A stretch of 64,000 bases of DNA, taken from Oribacterium sp. WCC10 (lineage in GTDB: Bacteria; Bacillota; Clostridia; Lachnospirales; Lachnospiraceae). The first letter of the stretch is position 1. Every line of letters begins with the position of its first letter. Where the stretch lies: positions 1-64,000 of the forward strand of contig NZ_FOPH01000006.1 of assembly GCF_900113415.1 (NCBI RefSeq), in the 5' to 3' direction. The translations under genes were made by a program, and so were the position numbers. This document shows positions 18,125-25,224 of the stretch, piece after piece. The notes below the pieces were generated by a model. The model made no database searches, was not told where the DNA came from, and saw only the letters and a program-made list of their open reading frames with translations.

Positions 18125-18537
18125 AAAGTACTCCGTTTAATATGTATTATGCAGTTAAAAAATATGCTGAAGTGGTTTAGCAATTAACGTACTTGATAAA
18201 TATGCAATTATAATTTGTATTTTTTTGCCGTAAATATTTATGAGCACTGTGCGGATGGAAAAATTTTTTTGAAAACAATCATTTTTAAAATTTAAAGCCA
18301 CAAAGGTGATTTTGTTATTTAAATAGACAAAATAATTTGTATTTTAACAAACAAAAATATAGCAAAATGTATAATCCATGTCAAATTGACATGAATAACA
18401 TATAAAAAATGCGGCTTGAATATTAAAAATCGCGGAATATAATAAGTTCGCGCGAGTTTAGAAAAAATTTTTCTATTTTTAGAGAAGATTTCTCAGCCAA
18501 GCGCATGCAACTAAATTTTAAGAATGGAGGTAGTAGA
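18125..18537. other. divergent regulatory region of LysR gene and atp operon
   Basis: This AT-rich 413-bp spacer has a plus-strand -10 TATAAT at 18370-18375 followed by a perfect 17-bp palindrome. The remaining 145 bases before atpB form a long leader with short complementary stretches such as AGAAAAAATTTTTCT. No coding frame is supported. The minus-strand promoter of the LysR gene was not identified with confidence. Confidence 0.6.
18377..18393. promoter_or_regulatory. palindromic operator candidate at the atp operon promoter
   Basis: CATGTCAAATTGACATG is an 8+1+8 perfect inverted repeat beginning one base after the -10 TATAAT, so it would span the transcription start. A dimeric regulator (for example the divergent LysR protein) binding here could repress atp transcription. 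It could also act as a short 5' RNA stem. Confidence 0.55.
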
Positions 18538-19224
18538 ATGGAGCAGTTTACCGAGGAACTCCAGGAACAATTGCAGGTGTCGACTGCGTTTACGATTCCG
18601 GTGTTTGGAGGGATACAGGTTGCCGAGTCAACGGTTATCACATGGATCATCATGGCGGCCCTTACTGCGTTGTCAGTTTATCTGGGATCAAATCTCAAAG
18701 TGAGAAATCCGGGAAAAAGGCAGCAAGTGGCCGAGCTTATCGTTTCATGGTTTGATAGCTTTACGGGCGAGCTTCTTGGAGAGCATGGAAAGCAGTACAG
18801 CACCATTATCTCTGTGATTCTCATCTATATCGGTCTTTCCAATGTAATCGGTCTTTTCGGATTAAAACCGCCGACCAAGGACCTGAATGTAACAGTTGGT
18901 CTTTCACTTATCAGTATTTTCCTTATTGAAATCGCAGGATTCAGGAGAAAAGGAGCAAAGGGGTGGATCAAGCACTTTTCAGAGCCTGTGGCTATCGTAA
19001 CTCCGATTAACATCTTAGAGCTTGTGATCCGACCTTTATCACTGTGCATGAGATTGTTTGGTAATGTACTTGGTGCATTTATCATCATGGAGCTGATAAA
19101 GATGGTTATTCCTGTCGGTGTTCCGGCAATCTTCAGCCTCTATTTTGATATATTCGACGGACTTATTCAGGCTTATGTATTTGTATTCCTGACATCACTC
19201 TACATTCAGGATGCAACAGAATAA
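18538..19224 (+). CDS. atpB: F1Fo ATP synthase subunit a
   Basis: Subunit a forms the ion half-channels beside the c-ring of Fo. The 228-residue polytopic protein starts with short MEQFTEELQEQLQ. It contains the essential arginine in helix LVIRPLSLCMRLFGNVLGAF (about 161-180) and the C-terminal helices with DGLIQAYVFVFLTSLYIQDATE. ATG 18538 follows GGAGG at ideal spacing; an in-frame upstream ATG at 18505 has no such site. It is the first gene of the atp operon; no atpI precedes it. At 228 residues it is slightly short but complete. Confidence 0.96.
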   Translation: MEQFTEELQEQLQVSTAFTIPVFGGIQVAESTVITWIIMAALTALSVYLGSNLKVRNPGKRQQVAELIVSWFDSFTGELLGEHGKQYSTIISVILIYIGLSNVIGLFGLKPPTKDLNVTVGLSLISIFLIEIAGFRRKGAKGWIKHFSEPVAIVTPINILELVIRPLSLCMRLFGNVLGAFIIMELIKMVIPVGVPAIFSLYFDIFDGLIQAYVFVFLTSLYIQDATE

Positions 19225-19279: not shown

Positions 19280-19501
19280 ATGAGCATGACAGCTATTGGT
19301 GTAGGTTTAGCAGCACTTGCATGTTTAGGAGCAGGTCTTTCAATTGGTATTGCAACAGGTAAGGCAGCAGAGGCTATTGCGAGACAGCCTGAGGCAGACG
19401 GAAAGATCATGAGAATTCTTCTTCTTGGATGCGCACTTGCCGAGGCAACTGCAATTTACGGATTCGTTCTTGGTATCCTTTGTATCTTCTTCCTTGGATA
19501 A
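19280..19501 (+). CDS. atpE: F1Fo ATP synthase subunit c
   Basis: A 73-residue helical-hairpin subunit that forms the rotor ring. Helix 1 is followed by the polar loop ARQPEADGK (about 36-44). Helix 2 carries the carboxylate in ALAEATAIYG (Glu near 55). Compared by eye with the Na+-binding c-ring of Ilyobacter, the helix-1 Gln is Ile here and the Ser after the Glu is Ala, while Glu, Thr and Tyr remain. This suggests H+ rather than Na+ coupling. AAAAGGAG lies upstream of the ATG. Confidence 0.96.
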   Translation: MSMTAIGVGLAALACLGAGLSIGIATGKAAEAIARQPEADGKIMRILLLGCALAEATAIYGFVLGILCIFFLG

Positions 19502-19542: not shown

Positions 19543-20049
19543 ATGTTAAGAGTAGATATCAATTTATTATTTACTGTTATAAATCTGCTGGTTCTTGTAT
19601 TTCTTATGAAGAAGTTCCTTTTTAATCCGGTTCGCATTGTTATTGAAAAGCGCCAGGCTGAGATTGAAGAATCTTATAAGAAGGCTGAAGAGACAAATGT
19701 CGCAGCAGATGAATTAAAAGCGAAGTATGAAGCCGGTCTCAATAACATTGAGGAAGAACGCAAGCAGACAATTAATAAGGCAAAGATCGACGCTTCAAAG
19801 GAATACGATGAGATCGTAAATAATGCTAACAAGAAGGCTGAGAAGATTCTTGCCGAGGCAAAACTTCAGGCAGAAAAGGAAGCGGAGACAAAGCAGCGTG
19901 AGATGCAACAGCAGATGGCAGTACTTGTGGCTGAGGCAGCATATAAGATCGCAGCTTCTCATGACAGCGAAGCAAATGATATAAAGCTGTTCGATCAGTT
20001 CCTTAGTAGCAATAGTCAGCCTACAAACAAGGATGAGCAGGAGGCATAA
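19543..20049 (+). CDS. atpF: F1Fo ATP synthase subunit b
   Basis: The peripheral-stalk subunit, 168 residues. A single N-terminal membrane helix (about 6-24, LLFTVINLLVLVFLMKKFLF) precedes a long charged coiled coil rich in Glu, Lys and Ala (about 35-140). The conserved FNPVR follows the membrane helix. AGGAGAAG lies upstream. The stop is two bases before the GTG start of the delta-alpha fusion, so the two are translationally linked. The C-terminal end would contact the delta part of the fusion. Confidence 0.95.
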   Translation: MLRVDINLLFTVINLLVLVFLMKKFLFNPVRIVIEKRQAEIEESYKKAEETNVAADELKAKYEAGLNNIEEERKQTINKAKIDASKEYDEIVNNANKKAEKILAEAKLQAEKEAETKQREMQQQMAVLVAEAAYKIAASHDSEANDIKLFDQFLSSNSQPTNKDEQEA

Positions 20050-20051
20050 TA

Positions 20052-22106
20052 GTGAGTCAGAATGCTAGAGAAATTGCAGAACGTCTGATTCAGTTACAGG
20101 TTTCAGAGAGTGTTATCAATGCCACTTCACGTATTTTTGAAGTACTTCCACAAACAGCATCTCAGCTCAGTGATCCTACTATCGATCTTGAAAAACGTAA
20201 TGAGGTTATCGATAGTGTTTTCCCTACTGAGGTTAGAAGTATTTTGAAGGAACTGTGTGATGATAATAATGTCGGACAGTGGCCTGATATCGCTGAACTT
20301 TACAAGACTGTACGTGCCAATGCTGAGAAACAGCTTCATGTACAGCTTAGATATGTAACCAGACCTTCTGAGAAGCAGCTTCTGGACATACAGAAGTTTG
20401 TATTTGATAAATATAATACTCACCATTTTGAGTTTGATCTTAAGGAGGATAAGAGCCTTGGCGGTGGATTTATCCTTGAAGTCGGAAATGATCAGTATGA
20501 CTGGTCAACAAGTGGAAGACGTAACCAGTTCTTAGAGCAGCTTAAGTCTACACGTTCAGGATTGACAAGCGATATGGATATCCTGACTATACTTCAGCAG
20601 AGTGTTAATAACTTTGACCTTAAGGCTGAAAAGAAAGAAATAGGATTTATCGAAAGTATAGGTGATGGCATAGCAATTGTGAATGGTCTCGACCATGCGA
20701 TGTATGGAGAGGTCATAGCTTTTGATAACGGCACAAAGGGTATGGTTCAGAACATCGAAAGAGATAGAATCGGTGTAATTCTTTTCGGTGATGAATCAGG
20801 ACTTGGAGAAGGAAGCCGTGGAATCCGTACCGGACGTATGGCCGGTATCGGTGTATCAGATGACTACCTTGGAAGAGTTGTTGATGCTCTTGGAAATCCT
20901 ATTGACGGACTGGGTGGCATTCATGAGGTCGAGTACAGACCTATCGAACAGCCGGCACCTGGAATCATTGATCGTCAGCCGGTAAATGAACCGATGCAGA
21001 CAGGTATTCTTGCCATTGACTCAATGTTTCCTATAGGAAGAGGACAGCGTGAGCTTATAATCGGTGACCGTCAGACCGGTAAAACTTCTATAGCACTTGA
21101 TACAATTCTTAATCAGCATGATAAGAATTGTATATGTATTTATGTAGCTATCGGACAGAAGGAGTCGACTGTAGCTGCCCTTGTTGAGACATTGAAGAAG
21201 CATGATGCTATGAGATATACATGTGTTGTGGCAGCTACTGCAGCTGACCCGGCACCTATTCAGTATATTGCACCTTATTCGGCCACATCACTTGCCGAGT
21301 ATTTTATGTATAAGGGACATGATGTACTCATAGTTTATGATGATCTTTCGAAGCATGCGGTAGCTTACAGAGCGTTGTCATTGCTTCTTGGACGTTCACC
21401 GGGACGTGAGGCATATCCTGGAGATGTATTCTATCTCCATTCAAGATTGCTTGAGCGTTCCTGCCACCTTAACGATAAACTTGGCGGAGGCTCCATAACA
21501 GCACTTCCTATTATTGAAACTCAGGATGGTGATGTATCTGCATATATACCTACTAATGTAATATCTATCACAGACGGACAGATTTTCCTTGAGTCAAACT
21601 TGTTCTTCGAGGGACAGAGACCTGCCGTTAATGTCGGTCTTTCAGTATCCCGAGTAGGTGGTGCTGCACAGGCCAAGGCCATGAAGAAGGCATCAGGTTC
21701 ACTGAGAATCGACTTAGCACAGTACAGAGAGATGGCTGTATTTACACAGTTCTCATCTGATCTTGATCAGAATACAAGAGATCTGCTTACACAGGGTAAG
21801 GTTTTGATGGAACTTCTTAAACAGCCGTTAGGTCGTCCTATGTCATTGAGTGATCAGGTTATTACACTTGTGGTATCTTTGAATCACAGGATGATGAGTA
21901 TTGAGCCTAAGAGAATAAAGGATTTTCAGCAGAAGATGCTTACTTATTTTGCTCAGAGATATCCTGAAATCGGTAAAAATATCGAGATATCAAGACTTAT
22001 CGGAGATGATGAGAAAGCTCAGATACTTAACATTGCTGATGAGTTCATGCGTCTTTGGAAAGAAAATGACGGAAATTTTGAGACTTCCAAAGAAGAAAAA
22101 GTTTGA
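20052..22106 (+). CDS. fused ATP synthase delta and alpha subunits (AtpH::AtpA)
   Basis: One uninterrupted 684-residue frame. Residues 1 to about 166 are a complete delta subunit: an N-terminal helical bundle, then the C-terminal signature DKSLGGGFILEVGNDQYDWSTSGRRNQFLEQL. From about 173 a near-complete alpha subunit follows: ILTILQQSVNNFDLKAEKKEIGFIESIGDGIAIVNGL aligns with the usual alpha N-terminus, Walker A GDRQTGKTS lies near 337, and SITDGQIFLE, VSRVGGAAQAKAMKK and a normal C-terminus follow. There is no stop, start or frameshift at the junction, where separate atpH and atpA genes are expected. The start is GTG with GGAGG upstream. The delta part joins stator to F1 head; only one of three alpha copies should carry delta, so the fusion raises a stoichiometry question. 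Confidence 0.95.
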   Translation: MSQNAREIAERLIQLQVSESVINATSRIFEVLPQTASQLSDPTIDLEKRNEVIDSVFPTEVRSILKELCDDNNVGQWPDIAELYKTVRANAEKQLHVQLRYVTRPSEKQLLDIQKFVFDKYNTHHFEFDLKEDKSLGGGFILEVGNDQYDWSTSGRRNQFLEQLKSTRSGLTSDMDILTILQQSVNNFDLKAEKKEIGFIESIGDGIAIVNGLDHAMYGEVIAFDNGTKGMVQNIERDRIGVILFGDESGLGEGSRGIRTGRMAGIGVSDDYLGRVVDALGNPIDGLGGIHEVEYRPIEQPAPGIIDRQPVNEPMQTGILAIDSMFPIGRGQRELIIGDRQTGKTSIALDTILNQHDKNCICIYVAIGQKESTVAALVETLKKHDAMRYTCVVAATAADPAPIQYIAPYSATSLAEYFMYKGHDVLIVYDDLSKHAVAYRALSLLLGRSPGREAYPGDVFYLHSRLLERSCHLNDKLGGGSITALPIIETQDGDVSAYIPTNVISITDGQIFLESNLFFEGQRPAVNVGLSVSRVGGAAQAKAMKKASGSLRIDLAQYREMAVFTQFSSDLDQNTRDLLTQGKVLMELLKQPLGRPMSLSDQVITLVVSLNHRMMSIEPKRIKDFQQKMLTYFAQRYPEIGKNIEISRLIGDDEKAQILNIADEFMRLWKENDGNFETSKEEKV

Positions 22107-22259: not shown

Positions 22260-23174
22260 GTGGCAACTACAAGAGAACTGCGAGACAGAATCTCGAGTAT
22301 CGATAATACATTAAAAATAACGAATGCCATGTATCTTATCTCCAGTACGAAGCTTCGTAAAGCAAAGATGGAGCTTCAGCAGACCGAACCATACTTCTAC
22401 ACACTTCAGACTATGATTCAAAGAATCATACGTCACTTACCGGATGACTTTACACATCCTTATCTGGATCTTCGTGAAAGTATTCGAGAAAGTAAAACGC
22501 CGAAAGAATATCGTACCGCGATTATTTGTGTGACAGCAGATAAGGGGCTTGCGGGTGCTTATAATCATAATGTTATTAAGCGTACGGAAGCACTTCTTAA
22601 AGAGAGACCTGATCATAGATTGTATATCGTTGGAGAAATGGGAAGAGCATATTTTCGCTCCAGCGGAGTATGGATAGATGAAGAGTTTCACTATACAGCA
22701 CAGAATCCGACATTACACCGTGCCAGAGTTATAACAGGCCGAATGCTGGATCTTTTCCAGGAAGACAAAATCGATTCCGTATATATTGTATATACCAGAA
22801 TGAAGAATTCTTTGGAGATGGTGACAGAAACCGAACAGCTTCTTCCGATAGATAAGCTTAGAGGCGGAGCGCTGATGGGAAGTCAGATACCGATGGTTGC
22901 AGGTATGGAGGATTTCAGACTTCGACCGACCCCCAAAGCTATCATTGATAATGTTATCCCTGATTATATCAACGGATTTATATACAGTGCTTTGGTTGAG
23001 TCATTTTGCTCTGAGCAGAACGCTCGTATGACGGCTATGGATGCGGCGAACAGGAGCGGAAATAAACTGAGACAGGAGCTAAGTATCCAGTATAACAGAA
23101 CTCGTCAGGCAGCTATCACGCAGGAGATCACAGAAATCGCAGCAGGAGCGAGAGCCCAAAAGCTGAGAGGTTAA
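22260..23174 (+). CDS. atpG: F1Fo ATP synthase subunit gamma
   Basis: The central rotor shaft, 304 residues. The N-terminal helix is RELRDRISSIDNTLKITNAMYLISSTKLRKAK, and the C-terminal helix carries the conserved SEQNARMTAMDAANRSGNKLRQELSIQYNRTRQAAITQEITEIAAGA. The start is GTG 22260 with AAAGGAG seven bases upstream. It is slightly longer than the usual 285-295 residues through the middle segment. The order atpA-atpG-atpD is normal. Confidence 0.96.
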   Translation: MATTRELRDRISSIDNTLKITNAMYLISSTKLRKAKMELQQTEPYFYTLQTMIQRIIRHLPDDFTHPYLDLRESIRESKTPKEYRTAIICVTADKGLAGAYNHNVIKRTEALLKERPDHRLYIVGEMGRAYFRSSGVWIDEEFHYTAQNPTLHRARVITGRMLDLFQEDKIDSVYIVYTRMKNSLEMVTETEQLLPIDKLRGGALMGSQIPMVAGMEDFRLRPTPKAIIDNVIPDYINGFIYSALVESFCSEQNARMTAMDAANRSGNKLRQELSIQYNRTRQAAITQEITEIAAGARAQKLRG

Positions 23175-23221: not shown

Positions 23222-24676
<1,455 letters not shown>

Positions 24677-24798: not shown

Positions 24799-25224
24799 AT
24801 GGCAGATACACCAACGTTCAGCCTGAAGGTTATAGCGTCAAATAAGGTATTTTATGACGGTGCAGCAGAATATCTGCAAATCATCACGCTGACCGGTTCA
24901 CGTGGAATAATGGCGCATCATGCTCCATGTATAGTTGCCGTGGAAACCGGTAAGATGAGTATAGTAAAGCCGGGTGGTGAAAGGGATACGGTTCTGGTCA
25001 GCGGAGGTATATGTTCCTGCGCCAATAACCGTGTTACAGTACTTGTTGATACCTGTGAAACAGCGGATGAAATCGATATCCGCAGAGCCCAGGAAGCCAA
25101 GGAAAGAGCCCTTGAGCAACTTAGACAGAAACAGTCTGTAGGTGAGTATAAGATGACGCAGTCATCGCTTGCCCGTGCACTATCACGACTTGAGTTTTCA
25201 AGCCAGAAGAAGCACTATATTTGA
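24799..25224 (+). CDS. atpC: F1Fo ATP synthase subunit epsilon
   Basis: The 141-residue subunit has an N-terminal beta sandwich (FSLKVIASNKVFYDGAAEYLQIITLTGSRGIMAHHAPCIVAVETG) and a C-terminal helical hairpin (AQEAKERALEQLRQKQ ... SSLARALSRLEFSSQ). It couples gamma to the c-ring and can inhibit ATP hydrolysis. It is the last gene of the operon, 122 bases after atpD, and is followed by a very strong terminator. Confidence 0.94.
   Translation: MADTPTFSLKVIASNKVFYDGAAEYLQIITLTGSRGIMAHHAPCIVAVETGKMSIVKPGGERDTVLVSGGICSCANNRVTVLVDTCETADEIDIRRAQEAKERALEQLRQKQSVGEYKMTQSSLARALSRLEFSSQKKHYI

Follow-up and report, generated by a model that had tools for sequence, protein, structure and literature searches.

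A natural delta-alpha fusion in the F-type ATP synthase of Oribacterium and loss of the delta N-terminal domain among fused relatives

In the known F1Fo ATP synthases delta and alpha subunits are present in a ratio of 1:3, and the C-terminal domain of delta binds the stalk. One stalk and one delta per F1 have been treated as fixed features of ATP synthase, a rule that was broken by hand in 2025, when Ueno et al. (PMC12229609) described an engineered deltaDeltaN-alpha Bacillus PS3 FoF1 that carried up to three stalks and had an H+/ATP ratio of 5.8 versus 3.0. In its available parts the same paper reports stalk binding by the delta C-terminal domain, places the delta N-terminal domain of the wild-type PS3 enzyme on the threefold axis, where it limits the stalks to one, and names a natural fusion in Acidaminococcus fermentans that lacks this domain. 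It adds that the UniProt entries G4Q3K6 and A0A1I2C5T3 show similar features, and that nature may also have broken the one-stalk rule. The idea of a natural delta-alpha fusion is already known from this 2025 paper; the present analysis adds the full-length form, its breadth, repeated domain loss and a triple fusion. No second account of a natural delta-alpha fusion, and no report of the full-length fusion and its spread, was found in the open-access literature, an absence that weighs little with preprints and most subscription papers outside its scope. The available portion of a survey of 2248 strains (PMC5709465) describes delta/b fusions and units without delta in Clostridia and mentions no delta-alpha fusion, that of PMC4478896 records F0F1 subunits in butyrivibrios and contains neither "fused" nor "fusion", and in that of PMC4154653 the word fusion occurs in the reference list only.

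The window, a stretch of 64,000 nucleotides of Oribacterium sp. WCC10 DNA, contains a gene (atpHA, 20052..22106; forward strand, as are all features given below) that was confirmed by its ORF and by Pfam and NCBIfam matches as a single frame encoding a complete delta subunit (OSCP) followed by a complete F1 alpha subunit. Its 684 codons without internal stop run from a GTG, located two bases past the atpF stop and seven bases past a ribosome-binding site (AGGAGG, 20039..20044; sequence and start scan), to a TGA. Pfam OSCP (PF00213) matched residues 8-163 with 64.4 bits (gathering cut-off 22.3) over profile positions 12-171 of 172, covering both delta domains: an N-terminal domain of six predicted helices that is lost in many relatives (residues 1-93, 20052..20330) and the C-terminal, stalk-binding domain with its predicted strands and helices (residues 94-167, 20331..20552). 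The alpha body (residues 196-684, 20637..22103) contains ATP-synt_ab_N (196-261), ATP-synt_ab (318-533) and ATP-synt_ab_C (540-665), and residues 175-667 matched the NCBIfam atpA model TIGR00962 with 725.4 bits (cut-off 484.45). At 594 bits, versus a curated cut-off of 750.5, the alpha part falls outside the N-ATPase/alternate F1F0 family (TIGR03324).

Delta and alpha are joined by a linker of about residues 168-176 (20553..20579), placed from a low-confidence structure model. The first-pass annotation had the linker replace the free alpha N-terminus, a view at odds with residues 177-194 (20580..20633), which appear to retain the alpha N-terminal helix: they are predicted to be helical, at low confidence, about nine residues past the last delta helix, and the hydrophobic pattern of the helix is visible in the consensus of full and short fusions. 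The structure models were monomers with mean pLDDT of 65.5 and 68.2, with values under 50 for the linker and for the greater part of this helix, and were used for domain borders only.

Gene order in the operon is a-c-b-(delta-alpha)-gamma-beta-epsilon and, as had been claimed, normal apart from the fusion, with all neighbors identified in place: atpB (subunit a, 18505..19224), atpG (gamma, 22260..23174), atpD (beta, 23231..24676) and atpC (epsilon, 24799..25224) by ORF, Pfam and NCBIfam, and atpE (subunit c, 19280..19501) and atpF (subunit b, 19543..20049) by ORF and Pfam. The a, c and b genes are single, and nothing in the operon demands several stalks. With its own stop, atpF ends at 20049, leaving b separate and the arrangement distinct from the mycobacterial b-delta type; it is the sole b above the Pfam cut-off in the genome. 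Across the whole genome (97.4% complete), atpHA is both the single PF00213 match and the single alpha scoring above the TIGR00962 cut-off; these searches found no separate atpH or atpA, in keeping with the earlier statement that none lies between atpF and atpG. Weaker matches in the alpha search were the beta gene and others read, from score and position only, as FliI-type, V-type A/B and Rho. The same genome also encodes V-type ATPase A and B genes (G000:C41:33267-35371), judged by score pattern only. In all 19 genomes tested (that of the window and 18 chosen ones) the fused enzyme was the sole F-type found.

Of 98 genomes searched, 17 were from the window's genus. The full-length fusion was present in 15 of these 17, two of which run off a contig end; of the other two, one carries a shortened fusion (G006) and one, 73% complete, yielded no F-type alpha (G010). 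Junction identity was 96-97% for Lachnospiraceae bacterium JC7 and Oribacterium sp. C9, and lower for Oribacterium oral taxon 078 (74%) and O. parvum (68%). Wherever dN/dS was computable within the genus, it indicated purifying selection on the segment, dS being saturated in several other segments. The delta N-terminal domain was the least constrained (dN/dS 0.04-0.17, seven of seven pairs), and the C-terminal domain gave 0.01-0.15 in five of seven pairs, with dS saturated in two. The natural fusion reported by the first-pass annotation is confirmed by its single frame, its Pfam and NCBIfam domains and the same junction in genus relatives, and represents a real, conserved variant of the F-type ATP synthase under purifying selection. 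Five of the 17 genus genomes (G005, G006, G007, G009 and G013) also have a canonical-type alpha of 48-58% identity, and Holdemanella biformis likewise has a canonical F-type alpha besides the fused one. In many genomes, among them these five and G450-G452, a fused F-type operon coexists with a second in which atpH and atpA are separate.

The fusion also extends beyond the genus. When a junction profile was searched against 397 genomes of the family, at least 75, counted from the best matches listed, had a match that ran without a stop from the delta C-terminal domain into the alpha N-terminus, two at contig ends; the other listed matches spanning both parts contain stops. Among the 72 of these 75 that were read (G143, G201 and G222 left out), 27 were full-length, 44 short and one a triple fusion, where the length rule alone had given 28, 43 and one before a domain HMM check moved L061 to the short form. 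A further set of the 80 best-matching loci included 78 readable ones, 48 full and 30 short. With a frame of at least 570 residues and no stop between the delta and alpha parts as criterion, at least 33 matches with an unbroken frame were obtained from a class sample of 391 genomes, partly in family genomes included above, and at least ten further ones from a phylum sample of 398 genomes. All 28 class and phylum regions that were listed without a stop and fetched proved to be fused, while a 29th, listed with a stop (L259), was split. Across the sampled phylum, and with G087 counted, the fusions read come from 19 family groups and include both full-length and shortened ones. Hosts of the full form include Pseudobutyrivibrio ruminis, P. 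xylanivorans and Agathobacter ruminis, and also a Lachnospira recorded under the title Lactobacillus rogosae; the short form occurs in Holdemanella biformis and Absicoccus porci. In L133 (4716-5948) the fused frame stops early (417 aa), possibly through a frameshift in the record.

Fused genes come in two forms: the delta N-terminal domain is either retained, the case in the window, or gone, with the stalk-binding C-terminal domain alone left on alpha. Short-form genes follow atpF closely and start a little ahead of the first strand in the delta C-terminal domain. The N-terminal domain is absent in 107 of the 206 fused loci (duplicates included), namely 102 short loci, the triple fusion and L061, L249, L262 and L267, four short forms that the length rule had called full. 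Class labels were first set by motif, then replaced by the length rule and finally checked with the domain HMM; L240-L242, which match the N-terminal domain only in part, were counted as full, and L075 and L103, without a P-loop pattern match, are outside all counts. None of the 41 unfused loci (duplicates included) had a short delta, with 166-187 aa in 40 split loci and 169 aa in L259. Among the loci read, loss of the N-terminal domain is confined to the fused state, as it should be if the covalent link takes over the role of the delta-alpha contact. In one short form (L129) the first helix of the N-terminal domain survives while most of the rest is missing, which suggests an in-frame deletion; in another (L254) the fused frame starts with a threefold tandem repeat of about 21 residues per unit. 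The alpha N-terminal helix can still be recognized in full and short forms of the main lineage, in the latter despite the loss of the delta domain to which it binds in known enzymes, and is less clear in short forms of other families.

No separate delta N-terminal domain was found by PF00213 or a domain profile (no match below E = 0.09) in 18 of 18 family genomes, comprising 17 with short forms and the one with the triple fusion (G122); all had been picked for a single weak PF00213 match, a bias toward single-copy genomes, and three (G191, G208 and G330) are 81-87% complete. In each, PF00213 saw the fused part only, and the one F-type alpha over the cut-off was fused. The domain profile found the N-terminal domain in four full-length controls; being made from the lineage, it is poor at canonical delta (6e-8 for the second delta of G009, no clear match in G024 and G033). 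Applied alone to seven short-form genomes of other families, where a lack of matches says little, it matched nothing in six; in the seventh (G949) its match was a full-length delta, located in an unfused second operon. Two further places for the domain were considered and rejected. Reading PF00213 through the stops in G191 and G116 led into upstream frames that are the b gene, with no N-terminal domain, and a move onto b is contradicted by the b-like frame of 149-204 aa that adjoins the fused frame in 97 of 99 distinct short-form loci. The remaining two (L073 and L107) begin at the edge of their stretch; starts were taken as the first in frame and b was judged by charge.

The distribution of these forms was followed in two alpha trees. 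In a 138-row tree, built by a quick method from the alpha core alone and with L061 mislabelled as full, fused genes fall into one F-type lineage on a strongly supported branch apart from the canonical alphas, and the short label needs 19 changes, at least eight of them forced by starred branches. A more careful 70-row tree, with rows hand-picked to cover sister pairs and supplemented by fusions from other families, needs 18 changes for the short label, at least 14 forced, and five for split versus the rest, at least three forced. Starred sister pairs of full and short forms are L058/L117, L025/L129, L065/L030, L159/L158 and L063/L037. The tree method gives no direction, and a change from full to short is what we infer. 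Several of the added families (L243, L247, L260, L262, L263, L265 and L268) lie outside the main fused lineage, so fusion probably arose more than once. L137 and L142 are full-length fusions, and L137 stands among unfused rows (starred in the 138-row tree, weaker in the 70-row tree), possibly as a separate fusion.

One genome (G122, 96% complete) carries b, the delta C-terminal domain and alpha in a single frame of 778 residues (L175, 1556-3892), located between atpE and atpG and encoding the sole b and the sole alpha over the cut-off in that genome. This triple fusion comes from one assembly, and no frame spanning b and alpha was found among the matches listed in 40 relatives. In G116 (L154) b and a short delta-alpha fusion share a frame and are parted by one stop.

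If the sole F-type ATP synthase of this cell is built from the delta-alpha chain, each F1 head would contain three delta. The C-terminal domain of the fused chain would grip the b stalk and hold it to alpha covalently, replacing the usual non-covalent delta-alpha contact. Three N-terminal domains cannot share the single site atop F1, so one is expected to be seated there while the other two stand aside. With every alpha offering a stalk-binding domain, an F1 head could hold more than one b stalk and a-subunit, in the way that the engineered short fusion does, and extra stalks would raise H+/ATP and allow ATP synthesis at low proton-motive force. The N-terminal domain, redundant given the link, may then have been deleted in many relatives, leaving the form that was engineered. 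We consider it very likely that the fused chain is made intact and likely that there are three delta per F1, while an intact, covalently tethered chain on every alpha is, from the sequence evidence, the reading we favor with some reserve. The question of stoichiometry raised by the first-pass annotation is a real one; no correction of the ratio is required, given that an engineered enzyme bearing the delta C-terminal domain on every alpha is active and accepts up to three stalks (PMC12229609).

How many stalks such an enzyme holds is the point on which the closest competing explanation differs. It assumes an intact chain and one stalk, with one delta at work and two as idle passengers, and is a possibility to be taken seriously, if somewhat short of even. 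The full-length form keeps its N-terminal domain under purifying selection, and this domain is said in the available part of PMC12229609 to limit the stalk number to one, so the enzyme of the window may have one stalk; idle copies would also explain the frequent loss of the domain. On the other hand, the triple fusion gives three b per F1 if its chains stay intact, and stalk numbers of up to three were reached in the engineered short form (PMC12229609, available part). By analogy with that enzyme, a natural enzyme with several stalks is plausible: for the short-form relatives the chances that more than one stalk is attached appear evenly balanced, whereas for the full-length form of the window this is rather doubtful.

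Cutting of the chain during or after assembly into free delta and free alpha, with degradation of the surplus delta, would restore a textbook enzyme. The linker, some nine residues modelled at low confidence, could be a cleavage site, and known enzymes as a rule have delta and alpha at 1:3. The delta part of short forms, however, amounts to little besides the C-terminal domain, without the domain that sits on top of F1, so that cutting should set it loose, and the 18 family genomes described above yielded no delta N-terminal domain elsewhere. Both points concern the short forms, with no direct bearing on the full-length form of the window; we regard cleavage as improbable.

Free alpha might also come from an internal start on the same mRNA, so that only some alphas carry delta, as implied by the earlier suggestion that partial translation corrects the ratio. 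Near the junction in the window an AGGA is indeed followed by in-frame TTG and ATG codons, as it is by a GTG at the same position in L009; an alanine codon, however, replaces the ATG in L011, L012, L013 and L014. Strong Shine-Dalgarno sites with a start were found at the junction in none of 46 full-length and none of 63 short fusions, compared with 14 of 28 in the same scan of unfused genes, while medium sites occurred in nine of the 46 (7.2 expected by chance, from other windows of the same genes), five of the 63 (9.9 expected) and 18 of the 28 unfused genes; L061 carried the full label in these scans. The scan detects half to two thirds of real starts and misses a third to a half. Judged by the start scan and its unfused controls, free alpha from the same message is unlikely as a rule, the suggestion of partial translation finds no support, and internal initiation as its source was rejected as very improbable. 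A sequencing or assembly artefact, or a decayed copy, has a negligible probability given the recurrence of the junction in 15 of 17 genus genomes and many other genera and the purifying selection on what is the sole F-type alpha found in the genome.

The favored reading of an intact, tethered chain can be extended, tentatively and by analogy, to a widespread natural class of enzymes with a stalk-binding domain on all three alphas. Short forms might carry two or three stalks with their a-subunits and so synthesize ATP when the proton-motive force is low. The full-length form could be the preceding stage, its N-terminal domain competing for the central site and perhaps shifting the stalk number (one if seated, more if not), and the triple fusion an end point with three b helices per F1. 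Natural test cases exist, some of them cultured (Oribacterium and Pseudobutyrivibrio for the full form, Holdemanella and Absicoccus for the short form), and bear on whether stalk number can set H+/ATP in living cells.

Compared with known systems, the mycobacterial/Gordonia type has delta fused to another stator subunit, b, which is separate in the window. Such a b-delta fusion poses no three-to-one problem. It is described as a delta/b Rosetta Stone fusion in the available part of PMC5709465, a b-delta chain is present in PDB 9vkp, and among the loci read only the triple fusion joins b to delta in a single chain. The canonical Lachnospiraceae F1Fo has the same subunits in the same order as the window, but separate genes, a full-length delta and an alpha across a strongly supported branch. 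The fusions of A. fermentans, G4Q3K6 and A0A1I2C5T3, compared by description only, are natural delta-alpha fusions like that of the window, although A. fermentans is described without the delta N-terminal domain that the window retains. The engineered PS3 enzyme (PDB 9jc1) was the third-best sequence match (residues 101-648 of the window protein) and the best fold match. It shares with the window a delta C-terminal domain placed covalently before alpha by a short linker and the lack of a separate delta or alpha. It differs in being man-made, with the N-terminal domain removed, and in having its stalks and H+/ATP measured; its chain has a size of 63 kDa, compared with about 75 kDa for an intact chain of the full form. 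The natural short form has the same architecture as the engineered deltaDeltaN-alpha enzyme.
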